Source: Rubrobacter calidifluminis (GTDB taxonomy: Bacteria; Actinomycetota; Rubrobacteria; Rubrobacterales; Rubrobacteraceae). Taken from it: DNA of 64,000 nt. A program made the translations under genes and the position numbers. Positions 23,012-53,363 of the stretch are shown piece after piece. The stretch lies in contig NZ_JAQKGV010000003.1 in NCBI RefSeq assembly GCF_028617075.1, positions 1-64,000 of the forward strand. Direction: 5' to 3'. The notes beneath the pieces were generated by a model. That model worked only from the letters and a program-made list of their open reading frames with translations, did no database searches and was not told the origin of the DNA. Each line of letters opens with the position of its first letter. Positions within the stretch are counted from its first letter, which is position 1.

Positions 23012-23514
23012 CTGCCTCCTCCTGACTGGTCCTGCGACCGATCCCCTGCGGAGACCGGCTTCCTCCTCACGTAGACGGTCTTCTCCACCCGGGCGTGCAC
23101 CACCCCGGCGGCATCCCTCAGCTCCACGGGGTACGTCCGCTCCACCGGCGCCCCGCCCTCCGCGGCCCTCCGGACGGCTTCGACCTCCTCCCCGCTCAGC
23201 CGGAAGCGGGCGTAGAGCGTCTCCCGGCCGGGCTTCTCGTAGAGGACCTTCGCCGCCCGGTCCCAGACTATGTACCCGCTGCCGAGGTTTTTGATGAGCA
23301 TCAGCGCGTAGAAGGGGTCCACCGCGGCGTAGATGCTGCCGCCGAAGATCGTGCCGAAGTAGTTGCGCGTGCGCCATCCGAGCGGCAGCCGGATCTCGAC
23401 CTCCCGCCAGTCGCCGGAGATGCGCATGACCCTGCCTCCCGTCCCCCGGTAGGCGGGGTAGAAGTTCATCCCGATCCTGAAGAGCCGGCTCGCGAGCGAC
23501 TCCGGTTCAGCCAT
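23008..23514 (-). CDS. Hotdog-fold thioesterase-like protein (DUF4442 type)
   Basis: 168 residues with a single hotdog domain. The stretch NYFGTIFGGSIYAAVDPF followed by a helix is the central hotdog helix, and the family resembles DUF4442 proteins, some annotated as acyl-CoA thioesterases. It would release free acid and CoA from an acyl-CoA or bind acyl-CoA. The gene is embedded in the fad operon: its 5' end overlaps the PadR gene by 8 bases and its stop overlaps the FadN start. The C-terminal 20 residues are polar. Function beyond the fold is inferred from context. Confidence 0.75.
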   Translation of the reverse strand: MAEPESLASRLFRIGMNFYPAYRGTGGRVMRISGDWREVEIRLPLGWRTRNYFGTIFGGSIYAAVDPFYALMLIKNLGSGYIVWDRAAKVLYEKPGRETLYARFRLSGEEVEAVRRAAEGGAPVERTYPVELRDAAGVVHARVEKTVYVRRKPVSAGDRSQDQSGGGR

Positions 23515-23917
23515 AGATCTCCTCGTGCAGCCGCTGCGCCACCTCTATGACCCGCAGCAGATGCTCCTCGAAGCGCTCTTTTATCTCGGCGTACTTCTGC
23601 TCCCCCCTCGGCGTGATCGTGTAGAAGCGCCGGCTGCGGGTCTCGGGTTTCTCCCACTCCCCGACGATGTACCCCTTCTCCTCCAGCCGCCGCAGGAGCG
23701 GGTAGACGGTGTTCGGCGAGACGCTCATCGACCCACCGGAGAGCTCCTTTATCTGCTGGATGATGCTGTTGCCGTACTCGGGCTTCCTGCGGACGAAGTG
23801 CAGGATGAGAAGCGGGAAGATGCTGCGGGTCTTGACCTCGCTGAGCAGTATGTCCCGCGGGCTCGCCGGGGCTTTCCCGGCTCTCTTCCCGCTCCCCGTG
23901 GTGGTCGTATCGGGCAT
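23507..23917 (-). CDS. PadR-family transcriptional regulator
   Basis: 136 residues with the PadR winged helix: FPLLILHFVRRKPEYGNSI, then MSVSPNTVYPLLRRLEEKG as the recognition helix and wing, and a C-terminal dimerisation helix. PadR proteins are usually repressors released by a small ligand. Its place between fadD and the thioesterase, overlapping the latter by 8 bases, suggests it controls this fatty-acid operon, with an acyl-CoA or fatty acid as the likely signal. A candidate operator lies at the fadD / acyl-CoA dehydrogenase divergent promoters. The basic N-terminal 20 residues may assist DNA binding. Confidence 0.88.
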   Translation of the reverse strand: MPDTTTTGSGKRAGKAPASPRDILLSEVKTRSIFPLLILHFVRRKPEYGNSIIQQIKELSGGSMSVSPNTVYPLLRRLEEKGYIVGEWEKPETRSRRFYTITPRGEQKYAEIKERFEEHLLRVIEVAQRLHEEIYG

Positions 23918-23936
23918 CCTCCCCCTTCCTCGGAGC

Positions 23937-25733
23937 CTACGACTGGTAGAGGCTCTCTATCTCCCTCGCGTAGCGCTCGCGCACCACGTGCATCCTGACC
24001 TTGAGCGTCGGGGTGAGCTCCCCCTCCTCGACCGAGAGCTCGCGCGGCAACAGCGCGAACTTCTTGGGCCGCTCGTAGGGGGCGAACCGGCGGCAGGCCT
24101 CCTCGATCTCCCGCCCGACGATCTCCCGGCAGCGCTCGTCCCGCGCGAGTCTTTCCCCGCCGTCGTCCACGCCGAGCGTCCGTCGCACGGCGTCGTAGTC
24201 GGGGACGACGAGCGCCGCGACGTACTTCCTCCCGTCCCCGACGAGCACGGCCTGCAAAACGTGGGGCTGCGCGGCGATCGCCGCCTCGACCGGCTCCGGC
24301 GCGACGTTCTTCCCCGTGGAGAGCACGAGGATGTTCTTGAGACGTCCGGTGACCCGGAGGCACCCATCCTCGTCGAGCTCTCCCATGTCTCCGGTGCAGA
24401 ACCACCCGTCTTCGGTGAACGCCTCGCGGGTGGCCTCCTCGTCGTCGAGGTAGCCGCCCGTAACCCCGGGACCTTTCACCTGTATCTCCCCCTCCTCCGA
24501 GATCCTGACGGAGGTGCCGAAGATCGGCGGCCCGACGGCCCCGAAGCGCGGGACCGGAAGCCGGTTGCAGCAGATGACGGGCGAGGTCTCGGTGAGACCG
24601 TACCCCTCTATTATCCTTATCCCGCAGGCGTAGAAGAACTCGCCGACCTCCTGCTCGAGCTTGGCCCCGCCGGAGACGAAGCAGCGCACCCTGCCACCGG
24701 TGGCCTCGCGCACCCGGCGGTAGACGAGCTTATCGTAGAGCGCGAGCCGGGCCCTGAGCAGGGCCCCCGGCTCCCGCCCCTCCCTCTCGAGGCGGTACTT
24801 CTCCCTGCCGGCCTCGACCGCCCGCTCGAAGAGGGCCCTGCGCAGCGGCCCGCCCGATTCTCCCTGCTCGCGCACCCGCTCGTACATCTTCTCGTAGAGC
24901 CGGGGCACGCAGAGCATAAGGGTGGGCCTCACCTCGCGCAGGTTCTCCGGGATCTTCTCCATCGACTCGGCGTAGTAGGTGGTCGCGCCGACGTACAGCG
25001 AGAGGAACTGGCTGCAGGTGCGCTCGAAGACGTGCGAGAGCGGCAGAAACGATAGGAAGACGTCCTCGCGCACGACCGGGAGCGCATCCCGGATCCCCTC
25101 CAGGTTGGAGAGGATGTTGCCGTGGGTGAGAACGGCCCCCTTCTGCCGCCCGGTGGTCCCGGAGGTGTAGATCACCGTCGCCACGTCCTCCCGCCGCAGA
25201 GAGCGCCAGCCCTCCTCCCAGGCATCCCCGAGCGGCTCCTCTTCCCCGAGCGCCTCGACCTCCCCGAAGGAGAGCACCCCAGTACCCCCCTCCATCGAGA
25301 CGAGGTGCGAAAGGCCCTCCCCGGCCTCCCTCACCTTGCGCAGCAGCTCCTCCCCCTCGACGATCGCCACGCCCGCACCCGAATGCCCGAGGATGTACCC
25401 GATCTGCTCTTCCTCCAGCGTCGGGTAGACCGGCACCACGACGCCCCCGAGGCTCTGCACGGCGAGGTCACCGATCGGCCACTCCGGACGGTTGCCCGAG
25501 ACGATCGCGACCCTCGACCCCCTCCCGACCCCGAGCCGGGCGAGACCCGAGGCGAAGCGCTCCACCCGCCGCCAGAAATCCCCGTAGCTCAGAGGACGCC
25601 ACTCTCCCCCCTCCCTGCGCACGAACGCAGCCTTCTCCGGATCCGCCACCGTCCTCTCGTACAGCGTCTCGACCAGCGCCGGTCTCTTCTCGCCCCCGAC
25701 GTAGGTCGTGCCAGCCTCCTGCTCCTTCTGCAT
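23937..25733 (-). CDS. fadD: Long-chain acyl-CoA synthetase
   Basis: 598-residue AMP-forming ligase of the long-chain type (FadD15/FACL-like). YTSGTTGRQKGAVLTH is the ATP-binding motif, FLPLSHVFERTC is the long-chain family segment, GYGLTETSP lies mid-protein, and WFCTGDMGELDEDG with RLKNILVLSTGKNV forms the hinge. It activates fatty acids for the beta-oxidation genes downstream, beginning a five-gene operon with PadR 19 bases away. Its ATG lies directly against the left arm of a 9-bp inverted repeat, so translation or transcription may be controlled there. A TTGAAA-N16-TATCAT promoter is just upstream. Confidence 0.92.
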   Translation of the reverse strand: MQKEQEAGTTYVGGEKRPALVETLYERTVADPEKAAFVRREGGEWRPLSYGDFWRRVERFASGLARLGVGRGSRVAIVSGNRPEWPIGDLAVQSLGGVVVPVYPTLEEEQIGYILGHSGAGVAIVEGEELLRKVREAGEGLSHLVSMEGGTGVLSFGEVEALGEEEPLGDAWEEGWRSLRREDVATVIYTSGTTGRQKGAVLTHGNILSNLEGIRDALPVVREDVFLSFLPLSHVFERTCSQFLSLYVGATTYYAESMEKIPENLREVRPTLMLCVPRLYEKMYERVREQGESGGPLRRALFERAVEAGREKYRLEREGREPGALLRARLALYDKLVYRRVREATGGRVRCFVSGGAKLEQEVGEFFYACGIRIIEGYGLTETSPVICCNRLPVPRFGAVGPPIFGTSVRISEEGEIQVKGPGVTGGYLDDEEATREAFTEDGWFCTGDMGELDEDGCLRVTGRLKNILVLSTGKNVAPEPVEAAIAAQPHVLQAVLVGDGRKYVAALVVPDYDAVRRTLGVDDGGERLARDERCREIVGREIEEACRRFAPYERPKKFALLPRELSVEEGELTPTLKVRMHVVRERYAREIESLYQS

Positions 25734-31984: not shown

Positions 31985-34561
<2,577 letters not shown>

Positions 34562-34573
34562 CTTCCCCCCTTC

Positions 34574-37207
34574 CTAGCGGGCCTCTATCCGGAAGACCGT
34601 CACCGAGATGGGCGGGAACTCGTGATGGAAGGTCCTGCCCACCCGGATCTTCCTCCTGACCGGCGCGACCTTGTCCGGGTCGGAGAGTGTGTTCTGGTCG
34701 CTCCCGCTCGCCGAGGTGAGGACGGTGGCAACGGCCTCCGGCCGCACCCTCTTCACGCCGTCGAGCACGACGCGCATCGTTCGCGGTGAGCCTGAAGCGT
34801 TGACCACCTTCAGGTAGATCGTCCCGCGCCGTTCGTCGCGGCTCGCGACGTACTGCAGGTCGGACGCCCTCCCGGCCGAGGCGTAGACGACGTCCGAGTT
34901 GGCCTGCGGGTCGTCGGCCGGGAGGCGGGAGAAGGCGAAGGTGCCGGTATCGTCCCGCTTTTGCAGGTAGAAGGCGCTCACCTGATCCCCGTCGATGCTG
35001 ACGAAGGTCTGGTAGCCGCCGGTGGAGGCAAGGTTGACCCACGCGGCGACCGTGAAGCTCCGGCTGGTGTCCACCACCGGGGCCGGCACGTCCACGTACT
35101 GCCCGGAGCCATTCAACGAGAGCGAGCAGGACCCGACCCTCCCCGCCGCCCAGCCGGCGCCGTTCTCGAGCGTCCCGTCGTGGCCGTCCGCCGAGTCGCG
35201 GGCGACCGTGCCGCTCCCCTCGTCGAACTTCCACCATCCGGCGAGCCCGCTCCCTGAGAGCTTCCTCACCTCTTCGTCCCCGAGCGCCCGGGCGTAGAGG
35301 CGCACGTCGTCTATCCGGCCGTCGACGAAGTCGACCTGGTTGCCGGAGAACTTCCCCCGCCCGATCGCGGTGTGCCCCCGTCCACTCCAGGCTCCGGAAC
35401 CCGAGTAGGGGACCGAATCGTAGAGCGTGCCGTCCACGTAGAGCCGCAGGTTCTCCGCCTCCCCGTCGTAGACCCCGGCGAGGTGGTACCACCGGCCGGC
35501 CTCGGGACTCGATATCACCGGCTTCTCCGGCCCTTCCACCGGCAGCACGACGTCCCCGGTGTTGTTCGAGAACATCCTCTGCACGTGGTAGGAGGGGGAG
35601 CCATAGCTGGATAAGGCGTCGTAGCCGATCAGGTTCGTCGGCCACTGGTTGTGCCCGACGCGGACGAAGAGTGGTGCGTAGGAAGCCATCACGACGAGGT
35701 CGGAGTTGCGCTCGAGCCCGGTCATGAACGCGGCCTCCCCCACCGCCGCCTCGAGCGTCCCGGTCGGGCTCCCCTCCGTCGCGGCGTACTCGCCGACGAA
35801 GATCTTCGTGCCGTCGCGCGGCGCCTCGTCGTAGCGGCGGGCGTTGTCCACGAAGAACCGCGGCGAGTTGTAGTAGTGCTCGTCGAGTACGTCCATCGGC
35901 CGGCTCTTCACCGGCGTCGTGGCGATCACCTGTATGTGCGGATATCTGGCCTTGATCGCGTCGTAGAACATCGGGTATCGGTACTCGTCGTAGCTGCCCG
36001 AGGTGTCGAAGAAGTCTTCGTTCCCGACCTCGACGTACCTGAGGTCGAAGGGCTCGGGGTGCCCGTCCGCAGCCCGCCGGGCCCCCCACCTGCTGCTGGT
36101 GGGCCCGGTGGCGTACTCTATCTCGTCCAGCGCACTCTGCACGTAGGGCCCGAGTTCCTCGCGCGGCACGACCGTGTGATCGAGCGTGTACCCCGCCCAC
36201 ACGCAGAGGACCGGCGTGGCCCCGAGATCCTCGGCGAGCTGCAGATACTCAAGCAGCCCGAGCCCGTCGTCGGACCAGTATCCCCAGGCGGTGTTCTGGT
36301 GCCCGGGACGCTCCCAGGGGGGCCCGATGCTCTTCTCCCAGTCGAAGCGGCTCTCGATCGTCTGTCCTTCGAGATAGTTCCCGCCGGGAAACCGCAGGAA
36401 ACCCGGGCTCAGGGCCTCGAGCCTGTGCATCAGGTCCACCCGGTTGCCGTTCTCTTCTCGCCGGTAGATGGGCGGGAAGAGCGATACATACCCGAGCCAG
36501 AAAGATTGCCCCGCCGGATTTTCTCCTCCCCGGCCCCCGGCATATACGACGAGCCTCGCCCCCGAGGTCGGCCGCGGCGCCCCCCGCACACCCATCCTCA
36601 CGGTGTGCATGCTCCAGTTCTCCCCCAACCGTCCGGTCGTCCCGCGCGCGTAGACGACCCCGCCATCCGGACTCTCCACCGCAACTTCTAGCGGCCCGCG
36701 GAAACCGGCCGTGGCCCGCGCGAAGATGCGCGCGGTGTAGGTCATGCCCCGCCTGACCGGCACGCCCCAGTAACCCTCGTTCGCAACCCCAAGTCTGCCC
36801 CGCCGACCGAGATCCCGCACGTCCACCCTGAGCGAACGCCGGTGCGCCTCGTTGAGCGGCTCGTCGGGATCGAGCGCCATCCCTCCCCGCGCACCCCCGT
36901 CCCTCACCAGCGACCAGTGGACCGGCTCGTCCGGATCCTCGTCGAAGCTCCGGTTGCGAATCAGCTCCCCGTACAGCCCCCCGTCACCGGCGAAGTTGAT
37001 CTCCTCGAAGAACACCCCATACAGCGTCCGCGGGATGCGCGGCCCCTTCCTCGACGCCTCGACCCGCAGAACATCACCCGTGGTAGCCGCCCCGGCCCTT
37101 CCAGCTCCCCCGAACAGAGCCATCCCGGTGATCCCGGCACCACCGAGCTTGAGAAAACCCCTCCTGCTGAACCTCCTCCTCCACAACCCACCCTCAACGC
37201 TCATCAT
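34574..37207 (-). CDS. Secreted GH51 alpha-L-arabinofuranosidase with an internal permuted LamG domain
   Basis: 877-residue enzyme releasing arabinofuranose from plant polysaccharides. A canonical Tat signal (FSRRGFLKLGGAG) starts it. The GH51 barrel carries acid/base Glu397 in EVGNEDFF and nucleophile Glu473 in FVGEYAATEG. The C-terminal GH51 beta domain begins after VLPVEGPEKP, is interrupted at about 563-769 by LamG sequence, and resumes with DVVYASAGR and GTIYLKVVN. Within the insert the LamG C-half (GRWYHLAGVYDG to RIDDVRLYARAL) precedes the N-half (GWWKFDEGSG to TFAFSRL), a swapped order. The start is the first ATG of a pair after AAGGAAGGGGGAG. GH2 follows 12 bases later. Confidence 0.9.
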   Translation of the reverse strand: MMSVEGGLWRRRFSRRGFLKLGGAGITGMALFGGAGRAGAATTGDVLRVEASRKGPRIPRTLYGVFFEEINFAGDGGLYGELIRNRSFDEDPDEPVHWSLVRDGGARGGMALDPDEPLNEAHRRSLRVDVRDLGRRGRLGVANEGYWGVPVRRGMTYTARIFARATAGFRGPLEVAVESPDGGVVYARGTTGRLGENWSMHTVRMGVRGAPRPTSGARLVVYAGGRGGENPAGQSFWLGYVSLFPPIYRREENGNRVDLMHRLEALSPGFLRFPGGNYLEGQTIESRFDWEKSIGPPWERPGHQNTAWGYWSDDGLGLLEYLQLAEDLGATPVLCVWAGYTLDHTVVPREELGPYVQSALDEIEYATGPTSSRWGARRAADGHPEPFDLRYVEVGNEDFFDTSGSYDEYRYPMFYDAIKARYPHIQVIATTPVKSRPMDVLDEHYYNSPRFFVDNARRYDEAPRDGTKIFVGEYAATEGSPTGTLEAAVGEAAFMTGLERNSDLVVMASYAPLFVRVGHNQWPTNLIGYDALSSYGSPSYHVQRMFSNNTGDVVLPVEGPEKPVISSPEAGRWYHLAGVYDGEAENLRLYVDGTLYDSVPYSGSGAWSGRGHTAIGRGKFSGNQVDFVDGRIDDVRLYARALGDEEVRKLSGSGLAGWWKFDEGSGTVARDSADGHDGTLENGAGWAAGRVGSCSLSLNGSGQYVDVPAPVVDTSRSFTVAAWVNLASTGGYQTFVSIDGDQVSAFYLQKRDDTGTFAFSRLPADDPQANSDVVYASAGRASDLQYVASRDERRGTIYLKVVNASGSPRTMRVVLDGVKRVRPEAVATVLTSASGSDQNTLSDPDKVAPVRRKIRVGRTFHHEFPPISVTVFRIEAR

Positions 37208-37233
37208 CTCCCCCTTCCTTCGTTCCCCCATCG

Positions 37234-37250
37234 GTGAGAACCGGTTCACA
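37234..37250 (-). promoter_or_regulatory. Candidate LacI-type operator upstream of GH51
   Basis: GAACCGGTTC at 37238-37247 is a perfect palindrome with central CG, inside TGTGAACCGGTTCTCAC on the minus strand. This is the shape of LacI-family operators. It lies 31 bases above the GH51 ATG in an AT-rich gap shared with the divergent epimerase, and resembles the motif before GH35 at 7124-7140. Confidence 0.45.
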
Positions 37251-51578: not shown

Positions 51579-53363
51579 CTAACCAGCAGGGAGGGCTACC
51601 GCGGCCGAGATGTGGGCCAGGTGGGTCAGAACCTGCGGGAAGTTGCCCAGCAGCTCGCCGCTTTCGGTGTCGTACTCCTCGGAGAAGAGACCCAGGTCGT
51701 TGCCCGTGGCGAGGGCCCGGTCGAAGACCCGTTGCGCTTCGGCGAACCTCCTCTGGCGGGCCAGGCACTCGGCGAGCCAGAAAGAGCAGGCCAGAAACGC
51801 CCCCTCCTGCGGATTCCCCGGGAAGCGTCTTATGAGCCCGTCGTCGTCGAGCTCCTCCCGGATGGCGTCGGCGGTACGAACCATTCGCTCGTCGTCGTAG
51901 TCGACGAAGCCGGTCTCGGGCAGAAGGAGCAGCGCCCCGTCGAGGTCCTTGGAGCCGAACGACCGGACGAAGACGCCACGATCCGCGTCGTAGCCCTCTC
52001 TCTCTATGGCCTCCCGGATCTCTTCGCGCACCTTCCGCCAGCGGGTGGTCGGCGCCCGCCGCATGCACTCCTCGGAGAGCTTTATTCCCCTGTCGAGCGC
52101 GCACCAGCAACCGGCCTTGGAGTAGACGAAGTGCTCGGGATCCCCGCGCTTCTCCCAGATCCCGGCGTCGGGCTCGCCCCAGAGCTCGGCGGCGGTGTCC
52201 ACCAGGTCCACTATGAAGCGCCAGTAGTCGTCGTCGGGGGAGTTGCTCCTCTTGTACCAGCGCCAGGAGAGCTCCAGCAGCTGCCCGAAGACGCCGAGCT
52301 GCATCTGTCCGGCGGCGAGGTTGCCCACCCGCACGGGTCTGGCTCCCCGGTATCCCTCCAGGTGCCCGAGCTCGCGCTCGACGAGCGTCCTCTCGCCCCC
52401 GACGCCGTACATTATCTGCAGCTTGCGGGCGTTGCCGGCGGCGCTGCGTTCGATGAAGCGCCGGAAGGCGTCCGCCTCTTCTTCGAACCCGACCTCGGCC
52501 AGGGAGCGCACCGAGAAGAAGGAGTCCCGGATCCAGCTGTACCGGTAGTCCCAGTTGGCCTCACCCCCGGGGATCTCGGGCAGCGAGGTGGTAGCGGCGG
52601 CGGCCACGGCGCCGGTCATCTCGTTCATCAAAGCCTTTATGGTGATCGCCGAGCGCAACACCCCGGGCCGGTAGCGGCCCTTGAAACGCATGCCTGAGGC
52701 CCACCCACGCCACCACTCCACCGTCTCCTCCAGACGCCGGTCGAGCTCCTCTGCATCCGGCGGCTCAGGGAGATCACGGTCGAGCCGGGCCGGGGGGACG
52801 GAGAGGATCGAGAGATGCACCCGCTCCCCGGCGTGAACGTCGACCTTCGCCGAGATCTCGTCCGTATCGGAGATCCCTACGTCGGCGTCGGAGTGGATGA
52901 GCAGACCATCGTTGCCGCCTATCGCGGAGAAGAGCCGGGCTCCTTCCTGCCGGATCCAAGGGTCTATCTCCCCGTAGTCGAAGCGGGGGGCGACCCGGAT
53001 CTCGAGCTGCACGTGCCCGCGCACCCCCTCGATAATCCGTACGATCTGGCGGTGTCCCTCCCCGCTCGCGGGCATGGCGAAGAAGTCGTAGAGGCGCACC
53101 TCCCCGCCGCCGGTGGTGAAGGTGGTCTCGAGGACGAGCGTCTCGTCCAGATAGCGCCGGGAGACGTCCCAATCGCCCCCCGTGGGGCTTACGGAGCAGA
53201 ACCCTCCCCTCTTCCAGTCGAGGATCCTCCCGAAGCAGCTCCCGGCGTCCACGCGCTGGATGCAGCACCAGTCTATCGAACCCGAGCGCGAGACGAGCGC
53301 CGCGGAGTTGCTGTCGGCGATGAGGGCGTAGTCGCCTATCGGCGGGTATCCTCCATCAGGCAT
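51579..53363 (-). CDS. GH15-family glycosidase (glucoamylase/trehalase-like)
   Basis: 594-residue cytoplasmic inverting hydrolase of the (alpha/alpha)6 family. The N-terminal beta domain has IGDYALIADSNSAALVS and SIDWCC. NWDYRYSWIRD holds substrate-binding residues. The catalytic acid is likely the Glu in DAGIWEKRGDPEHFVYSK and the base the second Glu in LFSEEYDTESGELLGN. Actinobacterial members of this exact architecture include GH15 trehalases, and trehalose is a plausible substrate, but glucoamylase-like activity is not excluded. The ATG follows GGGAGGT and overlaps the upstream gene by 8 bases; it ends a four-gene operon. Confidence 0.9.
   Translation of the reverse strand: MPDGGYPPIGDYALIADSNSAALVSRSGSIDWCCIQRVDAGSCFGRILDWKRGGFCSVSPTGGDWDVSRRYLDETLVLETTFTTGGGEVRLYDFFAMPASGEGHRQIVRIIEGVRGHVQLEIRVAPRFDYGEIDPWIRQEGARLFSAIGGNDGLLIHSDADVGISDTDEISAKVDVHAGERVHLSILSVPPARLDRDLPEPPDAEELDRRLEETVEWWRGWASGMRFKGRYRPGVLRSAITIKALMNEMTGAVAAAATTSLPEIPGGEANWDYRYSWIRDSFFSVRSLAEVGFEEEADAFRRFIERSAAGNARKLQIMYGVGGERTLVERELGHLEGYRGARPVRVGNLAAGQMQLGVFGQLLELSWRWYKRSNSPDDDYWRFIVDLVDTAAELWGEPDAGIWEKRGDPEHFVYSKAGCWCALDRGIKLSEECMRRAPTTRWRKVREEIREAIEREGYDADRGVFVRSFGSKDLDGALLLLPETGFVDYDDERMVRTADAIREELDDDGLIRRFPGNPQEGAFLACSFWLAECLARQRRFAEAQRVFDRALATGNDLGLFSEEYDTESGELLGNFPQVLTHLAHISAAVALPAG

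Follow-up and report, generated by a model that had tools for sequence, protein, structure and literature searches.

How does an enzyme gene come to encode, in one continuous frame, a domain whose two halves stand in exchanged order? The question is raised by P0001, a GH51 gene in the window – the whole 64,000-nucleotide stretch of Rubrobacter calidifluminis DNA that was analyzed. A sequence-only reading of this DNA had described swapped LamG halves spliced into the GH51 C-terminal beta domain and had proposed a circular permutation. P0001, its parts and its neighbors are laid out as follows:

34574–37249, minus strand: P0001, GH51 alpha-L-arabinofuranosidase gene by Pfam and a solved relative, 891 amino acids (aa), GTG start as listed
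37088–37249, minus strand: N-terminal stretch with a twin-arginine-like signal, RRRFSRRGFLKLGG, read from the sequence (aa 1–54)
35534–37087, minus strand: GH51 core preceding the insert, a CBM4-like domain plus TIM barrel, from the MgGH51 comparison and structural searches (aa 55–572)
34859–35533, minus strand: entire insert of 225 aa, between FSNNTGDVVLP and LQYVASRDERRG, limits from insert-free relatives (aa 573–797)
35249–35515, minus strand: LamG back half, first in order, GRWYHLAGV...RIDDVRLYARALGDEEVRKLSGS (aa 579–667; hmm columns 124–206)
35240–35281, minus strand: junction of old C-terminus and old N-terminus, GDEEVRKLSGSGLA; array relatives align straight through it (aa 657–670)
34871–35248, minus strand: LamG front half, second in order, GLAGWWKFDEGSG...TFAFSRL...VVYASAG (aa 668–793; hmm columns 1–130)
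34577–34858, minus strand: remainder of the GH51 C-terminal beta domain (aa 798–891), from the PF06964 span 486–882
31985–34561, minus strand: neighboring GH2 gene, bearing a normal-order LamG at its C-terminus
32003–32593, minus strand: this GH2 LamG, the normal-order reference (single match, hmm 2–206; PF13385 1–150)
37407–38729, plus strand: neighboring aldose 1-epimerase with a Tat-like N-terminus (PF01263, 4e-90)

The host protein has a frame that is open and stop-free across all 891 aa. It matches PF22848 (9e-36) and PF06964 (2e-27), scoring 124 bits for the ASD1 catalytic domain (cut-off 22.2) and 96.7 bits for Alpha-L-AF_C (cut-off 27), and PF06964 covers aa 486–882, its entire profile, on both sides of the insert. 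The best solved relative is MgGH51 (PDB 6zps, E 8.6e-116), against which the P0001 model reached a TM of 0.91 on the target in a structural search. The predicted catalytic pair, acid/base E411 (GNEDFF) and nucleophile E487 (VGEYA), aligns to the corresponding MgGH51 motifs. By its domains and both catalytic glutamates, P0001 is a GH51 arabinofuranosidase with predicted activity. MgGH51 shares with it the GH51 core with an N-terminal CBM4-like inserted domain, but is insert-free at the C-terminal site and lacks LamG (PMC7604909). The region N-terminal to the P0001 core (aa 1–54) contains no LamG, and its TIGR01409 match is weak (E 0.99, under the cut-off).

Set against insert-free relatives, where the corresponding linker is 4–11 aa, the insert lies where the earlier span of 34901–35521 had placed it, but its limits shift to 34859–35533, with the front half extending to about 34871. 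Pfam Laminin_G_3 (PF13385) matches P0001 in two crossed stretches within PF06964 (whole-protein E 2.1e-27) and scores the insert at 98.8 bits as found and 106.5 bits once rotated (cut-off 27.6). A 207-column LamG HMM, built from GH51 and GH2 LamGs with P0001 left out, behaves in the same way: as found, the insert matches hmm 124–206 at aa 580–664 and then hmm 1–130 at aa 669–794 (103+158 bits), whereas rotation yields a single match to hmm 1–206 at 276 bits. By BLASTP against the GH2 LamG – the sole other Laminin_G_3 match in the genome – the two crossed pieces (back half 52.9%, E 2e-25; front half 42.6%, E 1e-23) become one piece at E 9e-50. The gain on rotation against this domain is far beyond chance: when every third offset was scored, the local score was 221 as found and peaked at 412 at offset 90 (junction at 89). 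Rotation also lets a solved LamG-like domain (PDB 4qvs) align with the insert from one end to the other (4–213 to 7–220); without it, only the front half aligns.

Each part of the LamG is present once, with nothing absent or doubled except a few loop residues, and the two parts have traded places, the old ends now being joined. The insert fails the collinear strand order of Laminin_G_3 and is classed as a permuted LamG, not a normal member. Judged by these matches, the insert amounts to a single LamG (Laminin_G_3, concanavalin-A-like) domain, complete and circularly permuted. Pfam, HMM, BLASTP and 4qvs all bear out the swapped halves first noted by eye, and the check proposed alongside them, rotation before alignment, returned one collinear LamG match, with the junction as the best rotation. 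The same Pfam and HMM matches, the rotation scan, the 4qvs alignments and the models described below support the proposed permutation.

Two AlphaFold2 models of P0001 were built. In the first, misalignment spoiled the core and the insert part alone was used; its alignment contained array stretches in swapped register, and the insert was mostly at pLDDT 92–98, with dips of 79–88. The clean full model (mean pLDDT 88.3, pTM 0.79), whose alignment also contained array stretches in swapped register, has a strand-rich insert, mostly at pLDDT 83–94 with dips of 69–75 and lower values at the two attachment points. The insert is thus predicted to be a mostly confident single domain. Structural searches with the P0001 model returned only rows for the GH51 and CBM4 parts and have no bearing on the insert fold.

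The sequence-only reading had also offered a cause, that permutation brings the ends of the insert together. In LamG and other ConA-like sandwiches, however, the strands at the two native ends lie side by side. Because of this, an unpermuted insert would have adjacent ends as well, and this cause is not supported.

We looked for GH51 relatives in ~1,650 genomes of Actinomycetota, Armatimonadota, Paenibacillaceae, Pseudonocardiaceae and Planctomycetota, plus the genome_contigs collection, parsing the best matches in a survey that was not exhaustive. Three states of the site were found: (a) insert-free, often with 1–3 normal N-terminal LamG domains; (b) occupied by another ConA-like insert of ~175–190 aa; and (c) occupied by the swapped LamG. 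In a set of 113 ORFs, where a few entries are duplicate fragments of a single gene, state (a) comprised 22 with an N-terminal LamG, 13 without LamG and 3 with a C-terminal LamG, and state (b) 68 without LamG and 3 with an N-terminal LamG; the remaining 4 were in state (c), and each of these came from either the window gene or its twin in a second assembly. Among the surveyed GH51s, state (c) was seen only in the genus of the window, and within the class (39 genomes in total) the swapped-LamG GH51 was absent beyond the window genome and the twin. The unpermuted LamG that the sequence-only reading had suggested seeking at this site did not turn up: no other parsed relative had a LamG there, normal or duplicated, or an intermediate with a LamG array. 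Four genomes of other phyla had no such GH51 at E 1e-30, and the sole full-coverage match in a plasmid collection, from Nonomuraea, bears a PF06439-like insert and not a LamG. A literature search mostly outside subscription journals found no published description of a GH51 with a permuted LamG.

The nearest insert-free GH51s are from Paenibacillaceae (G450, 57% over query 61–571), Armatimonadota (G786, 55%), actinomycetes (G1295 and G1312, 52–54%) and Amycolatopsis (50%), and all have normal-order LamG domains at the N-terminus – three in G450 and in Amycolatopsis, one in Armatimonadota and two further actinomycetes. An N-terminal LamG also occurs in the GH51 of Paenibacillus sp. P25, among the closest insert-free relatives; separately, this tandem LamG-GH51 gene (L057, L084, L088) is broken over several frames, through sequencing error or as a pseudogene. 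The LamG domains of the Amycolatopsis and Paenibacillaceae GH51s form tandem arrays, and the insert, in its swapped order, matches the back of LamG1 plus the front of LamG2 in single HSPs that cross the junction at 51–53% identity:

G398, 7600171–7600806: array match to query 578–795
G396, 207014–207601: array match to query 580–780
G450, 23345–23956: array match to query 579–786

A source array of this kind is therefore known in GH51 relatives, and the insert is collinear with its out-of-phase period. The junction itself (aa 657–670) resembles the linker between two tandem LamG domains. Both halves have their highest identity to GH51 N-terminal LamGs and share the same nearest relatives, the single LamG of Armatimonadota G786 and Amycolatopsis LamG1, and so do not point clearly to a LamG1 back and a LamG2 front; half-domain trees give no resolution between a one-copy and a two-copy source. 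In a tree of the GH51 core, the window gene falls with insert-free genes and one set of state (b) genes at a support of 0.75; the tree resolves no sister for it. We also considered the neighboring GH2 LamG as a source and regard it as less likely: its back half alone is 51% identical to that of the insert, but it falls outside the 14 LamGs nearest to the insert, and across the full domain GH51 N-terminal LamGs come closer, with up to 57% identity.

We consider it probable that the insert originated as one period of a tandem array excised out of phase, with halves that fold together as one sandwich. An ancestral GH51 would have had a tandem row of LamG domains like those at the N-termini of relatives, and one out-of-phase period – a back half together with the front half of the copy that follows – would have been copied or moved to the C-terminal loop, the N-terminal array being lost. 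A short linker would then join the old LamG ends. The new ends would fall in the loop that links strand TFAFSRL of the front half to strand GRWYHLAGV of the back half, and each would be fused to one flank of a permissive loop where the GH51 C-terminal beta domain begins; the two halves would pair as one beta sandwich. No separate permutation step would be needed, because a tandem-array period taken at any phase is a whole permuted domain. We infer this route, and with it a two-copy origin of the halves; what is observed is the order, completeness and open frame of the insert, its presence in two assemblies and the site states of relatives.

The other ConA-like domain at this site may bear on why a permuted form is found there. 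This PF06439-like domain of ~180 aa is widespread across several phyla within the GH51 C-terminal beta domain:

L007 (actinomycete), L082 (Armatimonadota), L083 (Planctomycetota), L034–L037, L141–L175, L255–L275 and others: GH51 loci carrying the PF06439-like insert

It is itself permuted, with its last strand first. The L082 and L007 inserts open with GAIGLGTWATQAEYRDVTV or GAVGLSTWATSAAYDDVKV; as found, they match profile positions 11–155 (L082) and 10–157 (L007) of the 187 columns of PF06439, and moving the first stretch to the end extends the match to 11–186 (+8 bits) and 10–186 (+7 bits), a relocated strand that collinear profiles miss. On the Laminin_G_3 profile the window insert begins at ~75 and the PF06439-like insert ends at 106–108, so that the two cut points flank one hairpin, GRWYDIRIEVQG..CYLDGKLI, that of the window just before it and that of the PF06439-like insert just after. 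Because rotation lengthens the PF06439 match in L082 and L007, the alignments indicate that the same GH51 loop took two different ConA-like domains, both permuted, and not in one insertion event. Paenibacillaceae GH51s of ~800 aa (L125, L115–L119, L126, L131) have a strongly diverged PF06439-like insert.

Other histories would give the same or a similar arrangement. An identical product, with a junction like a tandem-LamG linker, would arise if a normal LamG had been inserted at the C-terminal site, duplicated in tandem and trimmed of its outer halves; we think this unlikely, as the site was free of normal or duplicated LamGs in every GH51 surveyed, whereas N-terminal arrays exist in close relatives. 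It is very improbable that the halves are decaying remnants of two broken LamGs that do not fold together. They could stem from neighboring array copies, but they jointly cover the LamG profile once, gap-free and without excess, the AlphaFold2 model of the insert is confident, and neither assembly has a break in the frame; between the two, the insert differs at 2 bases (1 synonymous and 1 non-synonymous codon, too few to gauge selection). Half-domains from different LamG copies, which the sequence-only reading had set against permutation, are no true alternative, as halves of neighboring copies could still form one sandwich. An order exchanged through mis-joined repeats is barely conceivable: the genome assembly consists of 54 contigs, and the nearby GH2 LamG could serve as a repeat, yet the halves are only 43–53% identical to it, too diverged to mislead an assembler, and host sequence matches flank the insert on both sides. 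The metagenome-assembled genome HOT.MB2.74 (L041, Rubrobacteraceae) has the same gene with the same half order (proteins 99% identical; locus 99.17% identical over 8.67 kb, 68 mismatches). Because this second assembly agrees, we rejected an assembly artefact, and the rearrangement raised earlier as a possible refutation is ruled out.

A further proposal addresses why the permuted form was kept and is compatible with an array-period origin. The cut points on either side of one hairpin (Laminin_G_3 profile 75 and 106–108) suggest that the two kinds of insert may share an orientation on the GH51 host, hung by the same hairpin with the same face outward, and permutation might have been retained for this positioning. 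With two events only, the loops beside the hairpin may merely be tolerant ones, and we hold the proposal to be doubtful. Equally tentative is its extension, that ConA-like domains are taken up by the GH51 C-terminal loop again and again but in permuted form only, hairpin-hung and with the binding face beside the active site; if true, it would amount to convergent, site-imposed circular permutation in two different domain families.

Permuted inserted domains are already known in kind. A very close precedent is swaposin, the plant-specific insert of plant aspartic proteases, for which an out-of-phase tandem array has been proposed as the source (PMC3320104). Like the window insert, it is a circularly permuted domain inside an enzyme; its source domain is known as a tandem array, and joining halves of two successive copies explains the order. 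The fold and host differ: swaposin is an all-helical saposin in a plant protease, the window insert a LamG beta sandwich in a GH51 of a bacterium. Here, moreover, the arrays occur in relatives of the same enzyme. ConA-like folds are a textbook case of circular permutation, and the concanavalin A/favin pair illustrates that this sandwich class tolerates it (PMC3320104), although the permutation of concanavalin A is post-translational, by cutting and joining, whereas that of the window insert is encoded in the gene. GH51s with N-terminal LamG (Amycolatopsis L042–L056, Paenibacillaceae L196, Armatimonadota L197, actinomycete L251) provide the closest LamG sequences and insert-free GH51 genes but differ from P0001 in their normal-order LamG and insert-free C-terminal domain. 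GH51s with the PF06439-like insert share a permuted ConA-like domain at the same loop but differ in family, cut point and insertion event. The gain here is that likely source arrays and an alternative insert are visible in relatives. With the product and close relatives of its putative source both in view, the out-of-phase-array route to circular permutation becomes testable, and a common GH51 insertion site is seen to host two kinds of permuted ConA-like domains. Such domains are split or cut short when annotated with collinear profiles.

The insert is most likely, by analogy, an accessory sugar-binding module that would keep a secreted enzyme on arabinose-bearing polysaccharide, a role we likewise infer; MgGH51 demonstrates that a sandwich inserted in this way can be without an evident binding site (PMC7604909). 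Because the GH51 core has both catalytic glutamates and the N-termini of its neighbors are similarly twin-arginine-like, the GH2, GH51 and aldose 1-epimerase probably form an exported set that releases and processes plant-wall sugars. Their twin-arginine-like starts (SRGDFLKG in GH2, SRRGFLKLGG in GH51, SRGEFLKAG in aldose 1-epimerase) are clustered in the window, which also encodes a GH15/trehalase-like gene at 51579–53363 (PF00723, PF19291).
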